Part shown: one piece after another, positions 36,323 through 41,326 of the stretch
Layout: each line of letters opens with the position of its first letter
Position numbering within the stretch: position 1 is the first letter of the stretch
Source: Pyruvatibacter sp. HU-CL02332
GTDB taxonomy: Bacteria; Pseudomonadota; Alphaproteobacteria; CGMCC-115125
DNA: 64,000 nt
Assembly (NCBI RefSeq): GCF_040362765.1
Contig: NZ_BAABWK010000001.1
Coordinates: forward strand, 1,279,501-1,343,500
Reading direction: 5' to 3'
Made by a program: the position numbers and the translations under genes
Notes under the pieces: generated by a model
What the model saw: only the letters and a program-made list of their open reading frames with translations
Database searches by the model: none
Told to the model about the DNA's origin: nothing

Positions 36323-36441
36323 GCGACGTGCGGGCGCGTAAGCCCGCTGGCCGAAGGAGACAGGAGATGTCTCGGAAATGAGCCGGTGTTTTAGGAGGAA
36401 AGGGGGGTGGGGGTCAAGGTGGCCTTAGTCGGTTCGGCTCA

Positions 36442-38583
36442 CTAATTCGTGGACTTTGAGAATGTGGCACTTGAGCTTAATGCCTTAGAAGCTGCCTCTT
36501 TTGTTGGTTCATAGTCCTTCCGGAGCAAGATAGGACGCTCGACTTTCAATGCCTTGCCGAATGCTAAGAATTCACGAGGTCTGAGGTTCGGGATCAGTCG
36601 AACGTGGCGCTTACTGTAAACGCTTTCCAAGAATGCGAGACTGGTTTGATCAATTAGCGAGTGGGTAAAAAACGTATTGCATTGAGAGAGTATCGTTTTG
36701 CTGACTAAAGCGGTTCGCTGACTGATCAACATTAATCCGACTTGGTATTTTCGGCCTTGCAATGCAATTTGGCCAATTCTGCTGACTACGTTTTGCTCTT
36801 CGCGCCCTAGGCCGGAACCAAATACTTCCGGGACAATTGTATGCGCCTCTTCAAGCACAACAAGCGTACGCGACGAGCCCCTGTTGGTTCGCGCCCACGC
36901 CATAATTGCAGAAAGATACAATTCAGTGATCCTCAAGGATGCCTTTGTGTTCGCAATTTCATTGAGTTCCAGTATCGCCAATTGCTCATTTGGAGAGGTT
37001 AGAAAGGATTCGATTTCGCTGGTGACATCAGTCCGCACACCTTCGACGAACGTCTGCAATATCTTTTTTTCTTTTCCACCACCATAATCTCCAGTCTCAG
37101 CATCGAATATCTTCTTCTCAAAGTCCGCCACCTTTGCGGCGGGAACTGACGGAAAGGTCGGACTGAACGCGGTTAGCCGGTGGCGATACTCTCCGGTTAA
37201 ATCAACGCAAAACACTTTTGTATCCCGAGCTAGGACTTCGCCAATCAGGTCCAGTGCAAGCTCCGTTTTGCCGGTGCCTGTGATTCCAAGAACCGCAGAG
37301 TGGTAGTCTACCAAATCCGCCGCGTTCGCAGACACATGAATATCTGTGGACGGCACCCGAGCGACTCTGAACTCATCTGCAGAGAGCACCTGTGGCATCA
37401 ACTTGGCGTTGGCGGCTGCAAACAACGGAGAATTCATTTTTGGAAGCCAGGCAAACTTAGTGAAGCCGGTGTCCTCAGTATAAATGCCGACTTGAGTTGC
37501 ACTAGCGATATGGGTGCCTCTCGGATTCTGGTCAAAACTCTCCTCTGAAGTTTCTGCGTCGGTAATCTGATAAAACACCTGGCGGCCTTGCACATTCGCA
37601 AAAATCAGGTGCCCTTCCTCCAGTTCAGATGACGCTGACACCTCAAACCGGATGGATTCAATCATTGATCCCTCGACAACAAATCCAACCAACCTTGCAT
37701 CCTTCATGCCGCTGAGATCTGACAGAAAATCGGATGTTTTCTCGTCGTCATGTGTGGCGCAAACATGACCCTCCTGGATAGGGAGCGGATCATCACCAGG
37801 TCGCGCAACCACCAAACCGGTGCCAACAACATTTGCACCTTGGAGTTGTTCAAAGAGGGCGATTACAAACCTCTGCGATCCATTTGGTAGAGCTGCGGTG
37901 TACAGGCGATTTGGGACCCAACTAGCTCCTGATTTCATCCGGACACGTACGATGTTGGGGTCATCAATCCGATCGATCAAACCAACTGAGGTCAAATCCT
38001 GATTTTGGCTGACCGCGTCAAACCACCAAGCCAGCACCGATGCGGCCCGCTCAATGGGCCTCGCAACAACAAGCGCAATCCAAATGAACGATAGTACCAC
38101 TGGTTGGATAACGTCATTTTGGTATGCCGCTGCAATACTGACCAGGGCTGGAATTGAAAACAGGGGTACGGGATTGCCAACGACGCTGACCAATTTAAAC
38201 GCAGCACTTGCGGTTGTTGATCCGGGCAAATGTTCATTTGTGAAAAGTGCCACGAGCGATGCAATAACAACTAACATCGCAAAGAAAACACCCGTCCAGC
38301 GCGCAAAATCTATGCTGGCATTGGCGCTAGCAACATCACTCAAATCCATCATTGCGAGCGCAAGTATGGTTGCTATTGCACTTACAAGCGCGTCCCTCGG
38401 GGGCAAGAACCACGGCGCGGAGATAAGTGTTAGAAACCAGGCCGAAGCAGCGGACAGCAACCAAACTGATTTGAGGTCTCCAAGCGGTCTCCAAGAACCT
38501 GACACCGCTACGTAGCAAATATAGGCTATACAAAGGTTCACTATCAGAACCAAAGCCCTCTGCATCAAATCAGGTTTTTGCAC
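36442..38583 (-). CDS. Membrane-anchored HerA/DUF87-type ATPase
   Basis: A 713-residue protein. Residues 1-180 hold four to five hydrophobic helices. Residues about 200-400 include a HAS-barrel-like segment (EEGHLIFANVQGRQVFYQI). The rest is a HerA-type motor: Walker A GITGTGKT (433-440), Walker B TLVVLEEAH (573-581), and LMLISQRT with the arginine-finger Arg623, then ILSQCNTFFTHSL. HerA proteins are hexameric DNA translocases of repair and phage-defence systems, but membrane-anchored forms are poorly known. Base composition is clearly AT-richer than the neighbours (23/60 and 28/60 G+C in two lines, 36901 and 37021), suggesting transfer. No NurA or nuclease gene is adjacent. Confidence 0.82.
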   Translation of the reverse strand: MQKPDLMQRALVLIVNLCIAYICYVAVSGSWRPLGDLKSVWLLSAASAWFLTLISAPWFLPPRDALVSAIATILALAMMDLSDVASANASIDFARWTGVFFAMLVVIASLVALFTNEHLPGSTTASAAFKLVSVVGNPVPLFSIPALVSIAAAYQNDVIQPVVLSFIWIALVVARPIERAASVLAWWFDAVSQNQDLTSVGLIDRIDDPNIVRVRMKSGASWVPNRLYTAALPNGSQRFVIALFEQLQGANVVGTGLVVARPGDDPLPIQEGHVCATHDDEKTSDFLSDLSGMKDARLVGFVVEGSMIESIRFEVSASSELEEGHLIFANVQGRQVFYQITDAETSEESFDQNPRGTHIASATQVGIYTEDTGFTKFAWLPKMNSPLFAAANAKLMPQVLSADEFRVARVPSTDIHVSANAADLVDYHSAVLGITGTGKTELALDLIGEVLARDTKVFCVDLTGEYRHRLTAFSPTFPSVPAAKVADFEKKIFDAETGDYGGGKEKKILQTFVEGVRTDVTSEIESFLTSPNEQLAILELNEIANTKASLRITELYLSAIMAWARTNRGSSRTLVVLEEAHTIVPEVFGSGLGREEQNVVSRIGQIALQGRKYQVGLMLISQRTALVSKTILSQCNTFFTHSLIDQTSLAFLESVYSKRHVRLIPNLRPREFLAFGKALKVERPILLRKDYEPTKEAASKALSSSATFSKSTN

Positions 38584-38701
38584 AAGTTAGACCTCGCAAG
38601 CTGAGACGGAGCGTTCAACTTAATGCAACCCTATTCAGCATTGAGCCAATTGTCTAAGTGCAATTTCCTTGGTGTTACTTAAGGAGTGCACCTTCAGCCC
38701 G

Positions 38702-38800
38702 TCACCGCACCTCTTCGACAAAGTAAAACTCCTTGTCGAAGAAGCTGTAGAGCACGTTGGCGGGGACCTGATAGGTCCCGGCCACATAGTCGCCCTGGCT
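38702..38800 (-). pseudogene. Duplicated 3' end of the PIG-L deacetylase gene
   Basis: 99 bases match 40496-40594 with two mismatches (38757 and 38778), starting exactly at the stop codon. It encodes the last 32 residues of the PIG-L protein (SQGDYVAGTYQ...VEEVR) with two substitutions, and no upstream part of that gene. Together with 40496-40594 it forms direct repeats flanking two unrelated genes. Confidence 0.9.
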
Positions 38801-38828
38801 GGTGCGGGGGTCCTCACGAGCGTCCAGA

Positions 38829-39959
38829 TTACATCACCAGCCCCTCAGCCCACTCAACCGCTGCCGCCTGCTCCGCCTCATTGAGCCCGGCCTCAGCCCG
38901 CGCCAGATCCTGCGCCACGTCTTCCCCCGCCGCCTGCGCCAGCGTCAGCATCCCATAAGCGTATTGGATGTCGGAGAGAGGCGGATCGGTAGCCAGCATC
39001 ACCATTTTAATGTCGTCATACTCCGGCGGCATCCCATCGAGCAGGTGCCGTCCATAGAGCGCCAGCGTGGGTCCATGCCCGTCCCAGACGAGACTCCCAA
39101 GCGTCCTGAAAACATCGCGCATGAAATCTACGCGATCCTCAATCGATTGGGGTTGGTACGGGCCGAACTTTCCTTCGGCAAGAGCACGCGACGCCCAGAG
39201 ATATCGCCCTTCCGGCAACGCCCGCGCCGCTGTCAGCATCTCGTCAGCGACCACATGCCGGGGCGCCGGGGCATCAAGCCCAATATCGTGCGCCAGAGCG
39301 AGGGCGCGCCGGGCACACCGGCGCTCGAACACGGCCCAGGGACCGGCATCAACGTCCAGGTCAAAGTAGCCTCTGACACTCACCTCAAGGGTCGGCCACC
39401 GGGGCCGATCATGACGGCCAAGGGCATGCCCGCAGGTGAGCTGCCACATGGCATACGCCGCCCGGTGTCCCAACGACATGTCCATATACTCGCGACTAAG
39501 TCCGATACTGTCGCTGAACACGCGCACCCGGTAGCCACGCACGTCATAATAAAAACTCGCCAGACGCCCGGGCGCATTTGACTGCCCACCGCCATAGACA
39601 CCCGCGTTCAAACGCAGTGAACCCGCCATATCGGTCAGATGCGCTGAATAAGCCTCCTCGGTCGGCCACAGATAATCCAATTCCTGCCGCCATCTGATCG
39701 GACAGGGACTGTCACCCGCCTGTGACACGATGCGCGCGAAGACATCCGCCCCTTCAGCAACACCGGCGTAAGCCGCGTCCTGTGCCAACAGACCCGCGTC
39801 ATCACACGCCCCGGCATCAACGGCATGCTGAACAGCCGCCTGCCAGTCGACCGGCCGAGGCTGGATCGCTGCCGCATACAGCATCAGCACGCCCGTCCCC
39901 GCGATAACGGCCAAGACGAACGCGGCAGCGGTCAGACCTGCCAATCGAAAAATACGCAC
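38829..39959 (-). CDS. Unknown protein with one N-terminal membrane helix
   Basis: From the GTG at 39959 (preceded by GGGGA at good distance) the protein has 376 residues. It has a single hydrophobic helix at about 5-30 (AAAFVLAVIAGTGVLMLYAAA) and a large, probably periplasmic domain. That domain has scattered cysteines (GACDDAG, DSPCPIRW, LTCGHAL, ERRCARR) and a C-terminal helical part (LAQDLARAEAGLNEAEQAAAVEWAEG). No family recognised. High GC like the host genes. It lies inside the 99-bp direct repeats and is divergent from the gene at 40051. Confidence 0.6.
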   Translation of the reverse strand: MRIFRLAGLTAAAFVLAVIAGTGVLMLYAAAIQPRPVDWQAAVQHAVDAGACDDAGLLAQDAAYAGVAEGADVFARIVSQAGDSPCPIRWRQELDYLWPTEEAYSAHLTDMAGSLRLNAGVYGGGQSNAPGRLASFYYDVRGYRVRVFSDSIGLSREYMDMSLGHRAAYAMWQLTCGHALGRHDRPRWPTLEVSVRGYFDLDVDAGPWAVFERRCARRALALAHDIGLDAPAPRHVVADEMLTAARALPEGRYLWASRALAEGKFGPYQPQSIEDRVDFMRDVFRTLGSLVWDGHGPTLALYGRHLLDGMPPEYDDIKMVMLATDPPLSDIQYAYGMLTLAQAAGEDVAQDLARAEAGLNEAEQAAAVEWAEGLVM

Positions 39960-40050
39960 CAACTTATCCCCGGTGGTTTCTGCGGCCCGATACTTGTTCG
40001 CGCTCTGCGTGTTGTGGGTAGAGCTTAAATGTGGACATAAGGATTTGCCA

Positions 40051-40485
40051 ATGCGCAGAAGCGAGACCATTGCCCCGGAATGCGCCCGTATACGGGATAT
40101 CATCGTTACCGACCGGCGCGAACTCACGCCCCTGCTGAGACAGCGCTCAATGCTCAGGCCAACAGTTGACCGGCTGGAGAACGAACTTGACGACATCCAG
40201 CGAACAATCCGGACCGTCCAGAACGTCCGGCTGCCCTACACCGTTTCGCGCACCTGGCTTGGCATTGCCGTAGAATTGATTACCGAGGGCACGCGTGATC
40301 GGGTTCTTGATCGCCTGGCGGCGAGAAAAAACGCCAAGGAATCAGAGTTGCGGGGCCCCAAGTCAAACCTGAGTAGGGTCGAGGCCCGGATCGCCAGCTT
40401 GCAGGCAAACCTCCAGCAGCAGACAGCGCGGTTCCGCGGATTGAGGTGCGATCCCGGCGCCCTGGGTATGTGGACCGTAGGCTAG
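40051..40485 (+). CDS. Small coiled-coil protein of unknown function
   Basis: A 144-residue basic, soluble protein. It is mostly helical, with two coiled-coil-like stretches: RPTVDRLENELDDIQRTIRTVQ and, near the end, SNLSRVEARIASLQANLQQQ. These are separated by a short hydrophobic part. The ATG at 40051 has an AAGGA site. No family recognised. It ends 10 bases before the stop codon of the convergent PIG-L gene, inside the interval bounded by the 99-bp repeats. Whether it is a real gene depends on conservation elsewhere. Confidence 0.5.
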   Translation: MRRSETIAPECARIRDIIVTDRRELTPLLRQRSMLRPTVDRLENELDDIQRTIRTVQNVRLPYTVSRTWLGIAVELITEGTRDRVLDRLAARKNAKESELRGPKSNLSRVEARIASLQANLQQQTARFRGLRCDPGALGMWTVG

Positions 40486-40495
40486 AGGCCGGCCC

Positions 40496-40594
40496 TCACC
40501 GCACCTCTTCGACAAAGTAAAACTCCTTGTCGAAGAAGCTGTAGAGCACGCTGGCGGGGACCTGATAGGTCGCGGCCACATAGTCGCCCTGGCT
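40496..40594. repeat. 99-bp direct repeat, intact copy within the PIG-L gene
   Basis: The 3' end of the PIG-L gene from the stop codon inward, repeated at 38702-38800 (offset 1794, 97 of 99 identical). Similarity fades in the next 13 bases. Confidence 0.92.
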
Positions 40595-41326
40595 TTCGTG
40601 GATGTCCCAGCCGCGCAGTTTGGCGTCGGCATTGCTGGGCATGGCGTGGGTCGGGTCCGGCTGGTTCTCCGCCACAAAGTCCCCGCGCTCACCGCCCAGG
40701 CGCTGCATGACGCCGCGCGGCATCAGCGTGTAGGCGATGTGTTTGGGCCCCTGATAGACGTGAATGCCGTCGAACTGGCGCACGGCATGTTGGGCCGCCA
40801 GACCAATGCGCATGTGGTCACGATGGCCCGTCGCGCCGGATTCCGGCCAGAACGTGACCACCAAGTCCGGCTCAAAGCGATGAAACGCCTTGGTGATTTC
40901 TGCCGCCAGCGACAGGAACGGCACGTCGCGTTCCAGCGCCCCGTCCGGCATCGGCCACACTTCGTGGGCATCAATGCCCAGCGCATAGCTGTTCTTGAGG
41001 GCCTCCGCCATCCGGATGATGCCCAGGTGCTGCTGGTGCACGATCTTGGGCATTTGCGTGCCCGCTTCTCCGCGCGTGGCGGTGATCATGCCCAGGTCGG
41101 CCCCTTCGGCCTTGGCCGCCACCAGCAGACCGGCCACCAGCTGCTCATCGTCGGGATGCGCAAAAATCGCCATCACCCGCTTGGCGCCCAGCTCCTGCGT
41201 CAGCGACGACACATGTTGGACGCCCGGCTCCTCGAACAGGGAATCCAGCCAGATCACGCCCACCATGCTGGCCAGCAGCGCAATTCCGCCGATAACCGCG
41301 CCAACGCGCCCCAGAAGCTTGAGCAT
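40496..41326 (-). CDS. PIG-L family deacetylase with N-terminal membrane anchor
   Basis: A 276-residue zinc hydrolase of the LmbE/PIG-L family, whose members remove acetyl groups from GlcNAc-containing substrates. The metal motif AHPDDE is at 56-61 and the second part, ATGHRDH, at about 165-171, so catalysis should be intact. A hydrophobic helix at 7-28 anchors it, placing the catalytic domain probably outside the cytoplasm. Its last 33 codons, including the stop, are duplicated at 38702. It is divergent from dapF. Substrate unknown. Confidence 0.88.
   Translation of the reverse strand: MLKLLGRVGAVIGGIALLASMVGVIWLDSLFEEPGVQHVSSLTQELGAKRVMAIFAHPDDEQLVAGLLVAAKAEGADLGMITATRGEAGTQMPKIVHQQHLGIIRMAEALKNSYALGIDAHEVWPMPDGALERDVPFLSLAAEITKAFHRFEPDLVVTFWPESGATGHRDHMRIGLAAQHAVRQFDGIHVYQGPKHIAYTLMPRGVMQRLGGERGDFVAENQPDPTHAMPSNADAKLRGWDIHESQGDYVAATYQVPASVLYSFFDKEFYFVEEVR

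Follow-up and report, generated by a model that had tools for sequence, protein, structure and literature searches.

The window analysed here is a 64,000-nucleotide stretch of a contig from Pyruvatibacter sp. HU-CL02332. On its minus strand, at 36442-38583, it carries a gene for a HerA-type ATPase of 713 aa, here called TM-HerA. The open reading frame begins with GTG, has no internal stops and is preceded by GAGG 8 nt 5' of the start; a promoter scan gave no site 5' of the gene, the sole match falling within it. Three genes make up the interval from ffh to dapF, namely TM-HerA, a gene for a 455-aa protein without assigned function, and PIG-L. A sequence-only reading of this DNA had placed an AT-richer HerA gene between ffh and dapF. 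The position is right, but the strand is minus and the interval holds three genes rather than one. The accompanying remark that ffh lies beside dapF in relatives is inexact, since PIG-L and one or two variable genes separate them in congeners.

Domain organization and predicted structure

TM-HerA consists of a membrane domain, a beta-rich region and a motor. The N-terminal membrane domain (residues 1-195; 37999-38583, minus strand), delimited by hydropathy and the structure model, is predicted to contain ~6 TM helices. Hydropathy marks five segments in the window protein and four to six in every relative. The AlphaFold model, built on an 11-row family alignment without the plasmid proteins, has helices at residues 6-28, 40-54, 61-77, 89-118, 123-135, 138-153, 159-173 and 176-192, followed by a beta-rich part (199-375) and a RecA-type motor (404-688), with a mean pLDDT of 80; the N-terminal domain modelled alone reaches 88. 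Counting the hydrophobic helices of the model and weighing positive-inside charges suggests ~6 membrane passes with both the N and C ends cytoplasmic. The second and third TM helices are linked by a conserved loop, SAPWFLPPRDA (residues 55-65; 38389-38421, minus strand), in which P57 is invariant and P62 nearly so in both main clades of the family, A and B. Foldseek gave the membrane domain no significant match among solved structures, with every E above 0.2.

The HAS-barrel-like beta region (residues 196-403; 37375-37998, minus strand) is placed by the model strands at 199-375 and by Foldseek alignments to HerA. An N-terminal HAS barrel, as in HerA/DUF87 proteins, is thus indicated by structural evidence rather than by a sequence-profile score. 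The HerA/DUF87 RecA-type motor (residues 404-690; 36514-37374, minus strand) is defined by Pfam and Foldseek. It carries Walker A GITGTGKT (433-440, G433-T440; 37264-37287), Walker B VLEEAH (576-581; 36841-36858) and the QR of an SQR finger (Q622-R623; 36715-36720), all on the minus strand and conserved in relatives. DUF87 scores 40 bits, over the Pfam cut-off of 23.2, which answers the profile search that the sequence-only reading had proposed, and the PADLOC HerA models match the motor. The best PDB matches are HerA-NurA (E 1.9e-18) and SIR2/HerA (E 4.4e-18), with DUF4297-HerA also found, and the alignments to HerA span ~580 columns. The single chain with a hydrophobic N-terminal block, a HAS-like segment and a HerA motor bearing Walker A, an EEAH Walker B and an SQR finger, as first described from the letters, is borne out by hydropathy, AlphaFold, Foldseek and conservation. 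The AlphaFold model and hydropathy likewise support a membrane-tethered HerA ATPase encoded in a single gene. Both membrane insertion and DNA translocation are predicted from sequence and model, and TM-HerA presumably assembles as a hexamer.

Insertion site and foreign origin

The gene differs in composition from its surroundings, as had been noticed at the outset. Its G+C is 0.497 against 0.60-0.65 in the neighbours and its GC3 0.504 against 0.68-0.83; in a comparison with the window ORFs only, this GC3 is the lowest of 52, ~3.5 sd under the mean of 0.70 (sd 0.057). None of the three same-genus genomes examined has a full-length relative; two carry soluble HerA only, one of which (G002) is 81% complete. 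The second HerA of the window's genome (L041:4934-6616) is of the soluble type common to congeners and belongs to another family. Horizontal acquisition of the TM-HerA gene, in line with the transfer proposed earlier, is supported by its composition, its absence from the congeners and its scattered occurrence. Vertical inheritance is ruled out by the absence of the gene from the three congeners and its presence in only six of 385 alphaproteobacterial genomes, the window's own counted.

Comparison with the congener G003 delimits the insertion. Homology stops at 36418, 24 bp beyond the TM-HerA stop codon, and restarts at 40493. TM-HerA is the lone ORF of a 2.28-kb segment (36419-38695) absent from the ffh/PIG-L interval of G003. 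Upstream of the gene, the 3' end of PIG-L is repeated in truncated form (38699-38813, minus strand; 38696-38800 in the G003 comparison), with 92% identity to the corresponding end of the intact PIG-L gene (40493-40607, minus strand). This duplication is a junction scar, consistent with arrival of the gene through recombination, the donor DNA coming from a close relative in which the gene was already present. The 455-aa gene (38829-40196, minus strand) matches no Pfam family and has homologues in the same interval of G001 (45% identity) and G003 (30%). It is fast-evolving and genus-specific, yet its position between ffh and PIG-L is fixed in congeners. In G001 the interval also holds a DUF2804 gene, and the differing contents of the two congeners indicate that the spot is variable within the genus.

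Family and genomic neighbourhoods

Full-length relatives of TM-HerA occur in two MAGs (54% and 53% identity) and on plasmids of Bradyrhizobium, Aminobacter and Arcobacter. Besides the alphaproteobacterial genomes counted above, the family was found in three of 398 genomes of the phylum (again including the window's own) and in four of 369 genomes of a second class. One IMG/VR contig, a prophage, carries a relative and is the sole viral-contig match; tblastn against the INPHARED phage genomes gave no match, and viral contigs scanned with P0003 gave no relative. About 13 ORFs are intact (660-765 aa), spread over two proteobacterial classes and Campylobacterota with the motor residues conserved, and the Bradyrhizobium plasmid copies are frameshifted. 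TM-HerA proteins form a single clade separate from soluble HerA, with support of 100/100 for the full length and for the motor alone. Within it, clade A includes the window protein (41-54% identity), clade B is more remote (~24-27%) and the protein of L045 stands on a separate long branch. A 13-row alignment was too diverse to yield patterns; in the 11-row alignment W41, P57, W168, P176 and G201 are invariant, which indicates that the membrane domain is homologous in branches A and B.

Most clade A copies are lone AT-rich insertions amid housekeeping genes, and in five neighbourhoods (L001, L002, L036, L038 and the window) TM-HerA has the lowest GC3. PADLOC finds no known defence gene adjoining the window copy or most chromosomal copies of this clade. 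Two settings in clade A are of another kind. In L035, TM-HerA follows the terminase, portal and DNA methyltransferase genes of a P2-like prophage. In P2-like phages the stretch from gpA to the portal gene, gpQ, is a hotspot of defence genes (PMC9122126), and this copy sits at its gpQ side. On the Bradyrhizobium plasmids, an Abi_C gene and a restriction endonuclease occur close to the TM-HerA copies. As an informal control, PADLOC on ten clade A neighbours returned just a CcrM-type methyltransferase and one marginal regulator match, so the library does not match at random. The CcrM-like methyltransferase with a RAMA domain (L037:7575-8708), which in G370 precedes the clade A copy by 72 bp, was set aside as a housekeeping enzyme.

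Defence genes adjoin several copies of clade B and that of the L045 branch. In Arcobacter (L026), TM-HerA lies within a type I R-M operon, together with a SLATT_6 effector and a CBASS cyclase, and in L045 it is flanked by a type I specificity gene and PDC-S42. In L044 it stands between type I R-M genes and Drt8, whose start is 20 bp past the TM-HerA stop, and in L025 it is followed directly by Drt8 and then by a retron RT. The L051 copy has IetA-IetS 50 bp upstream and, downstream, a type III methyltransferase; in L053 the gene after TM-HerA is restriction-like by a weak match, and no known defence genes are near the copies in L039 and L052. A retron type VII-A1 RT-DUF3800 (L025:13168-15012) and a PDC-S06 candidate (L044:1009-3627) add to the density of these defence islands. 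The comparison of neighbours suggested by the sequence-only reading has thus yielded defence genes near clade B copies and a hotspot position for the prophage copy, and none of the NurA, SIR2 or DUF4297 partners at the loci inspected.

Drt8 has a distribution of its own. It is present in only five of 372 alphaproteobacterial genomes, among them that of the window (L059:8519-10096, minus strand; G000:C1:626551-628089; E 8.2e-94), where it is solitary, has a GC3 of 0.48 and lies in housekeeping surroundings distant from TM-HerA. In two genomes a short gene (~239 aa) with a similar start directly follows Drt8 (L060:7963-8682 and L061:5678-6388) and may be a Drt8 partner. A fixed partnership of TM-HerA with Drt8 is not general, Drt8 being elsewhere solitary or beside another short gene.

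Possible function and comparison with known systems

The TM-HerA family probably represents a branch of anti-phage defence proteins that has gone unrecognised. In our best explanation of the locus, to which we give a probability of about 0.55, TM-HerA is a single-gene defence against phages (or mobile DNA) that spreads horizontally, in the form of a membrane-tethered hexameric HerA dsDNA translocase. Relatives are co-located with defence genes; the window copy adjoins none. The earlier suggestion of a defence device finds support in this association only, which is strong for the clade B relatives and the prophage copy and is not drawn from the window's own neighbours. A defence role of the window protein would be carried over from relatives at 24-45% identity. 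Neither a constant partner gene nor a nuclease domain was found.

DNA entering the DUF4297-HerA complex at the base of the motor passes through the ring to a nuclease docked on the HAS domain (PMC11291478). By analogy, a TM-HerA hexamer would be tethered to the inner membrane via its own six-helix domain, with the HAS ring joined to that domain. As the HAS-like region directly follows the membrane domain, the exit side of the ring would face the membrane, which would take the place of the nuclease. The ring may then grip incoming or cut DNA close to the membrane and pump it towards the membrane face, so that DNA entry would be stalled, DNA extruded, or DNA held for restriction enzymes or nucleases encoded elsewhere. 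Most simply, TM-HerA would be a tethered dsDNA pump that acts on DNA as it comes in or once it has been cut; the same anatomy could pump, block or open the membrane. A precedent for defence at this site is SNIPE, a membrane-bound protein that recognises phage DNA during injection (PMC13190303). It is tempting, if speculative, to go further and propose a nuclease-free single-protein immune device whose anchored ring stalls or reverse-pumps incoming dsDNA by ATP at the phage entry site; we consider this stricter version rather unlikely. If true, it would be a defence strategy unlike DNA cutting or cell killing.

The same architecture could serve to kill the infected cell. In such an abortive-infection effector, the HerA ring would sense phage DNA or ends and its ATPase would gate a helix pore that depolarises the cell. 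The ~6 helices per chain joined straight to the HAS ring, the CBASS operon with a 2TM effector adjoining one relative and the Abi_C neighbours in Bradyrhizobium all point this way. However, the whole family retains the residues of Walker A, Walker B and the finger, as expected of a working translocase, and the membrane domain has no channel-like match (every E above 0.2), which leaves a pore effector a doubtful candidate. Comparable odds, well short of even, attach to an accessory motor of restriction-modification or reverse-transcriptase systems with its partner in trans. Three relatives lie in or adjoin type I R-M genes, Drt8 directly follows two, and the window's genome encodes Drt8 at a distant site; but the partners vary by locus, clade A copies have none, and four other genomes in the class sample carry Drt8 but no TM-HerA.

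Two further readings dispense with defence. A selfish or neutral cargo gene, of no conserved host benefit and decaying after transfer, would explain solitary copies amid housekeeping genes and the frameshifts in Bradyrhizobium. It is improbable given the ~13 intact ORFs with conserved motor residues across such distant bacteria and the repeated placement of TM-HerA adjoining defence systems. Least probable, and very unlikely, is a pump for DNA donation or a conjugation-like process, which had been an early suggestion. Its model is TdtA of Thermus, a hexameric HerA/FtsK-type ATPase that associates with the membrane and is encoded on a mobile island (PMC5365140), and some TM-HerA relatives are indeed plasmid-borne. 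Yet NurA, integrase, relaxase and mating-pair genes are absent beside the window copy and the solitary relatives, conjugation genes are absent from the interval, and the clade B neighbours are defence genes. A type IV coupling protein (TrwB/TraD) is not indicated either, as TrwB_AAD_bind scores 19.7 bits against a Pfam cut-off of 20.5.

To our knowledge, the anti-phage HerA systems characterised so far are soluble, with a motor that delivers DNA to an enzyme docked in the complex. A monophyletic branch of single-gene HerA proteins, with a membrane domain in place of the docked enzyme and with defence neighbours, raises the possibility that membrane DNA pumping may itself be the immune activity. 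No prior description of a membrane-anchored HerA defence group was found in the literature searched, which took in few subscription papers or preprints. TM-HerA is a one-gene system and directly testable, with the conserved loop and motor residues as ready mutant targets.

Among known systems, the closest in motor and setting are SIR2-HerA, DUF4297-HerA and related anti-phage HerA proteins (NF042943, NF042944, PADLOC). They have the HAS and RecA-type motor fold and motifs in common with TM-HerA, are likewise mobile and defence-associated, and stand among its best solved-structure matches. TM-HerA differs in having its own membrane domain and in the absence of a SIR2, DUF4297 or nuclease partner gene beside the window copy and at the relatives' loci inspected; against the NCBIfam anti-phage HerA equivalogs it scores 70.4 bits (cut-off 800) and 54.6 bits (cut-off 850). 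The HerA-NurA end-resection complex, the top Foldseek match (9x1m), has the same HerA motor, whereas TM-HerA is membrane-anchored, has no adjoining NurA and is encoded by a foreign gene of sporadic occurrence, not by a conserved repair gene. TdtA, a hexameric ATPase of the FtsK-HerA superfamily encoded on ICETh1, resembles TM-HerA in its membrane association and mobile setting, but its operon contains NurA, a type IIG restriction enzyme and an integrase, none of which is found at the TM-HerA locus. FtsK/SpoIIIE proteins also combine N-terminal membrane helices with a ring-shaped DNA motor, the ring being predicted in TM-HerA, whose motor is of the HerA/DUF87 type with a HAS-like region; no FtsK family of Pfam, for motor or gamma domain, matches it up to E 0.1. 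SNIPE, a membrane-localised defence protein, is a nuclease without a HerA motor and is proposed as a functional precedent for TM-HerA, not a homologue (PMC13190303).
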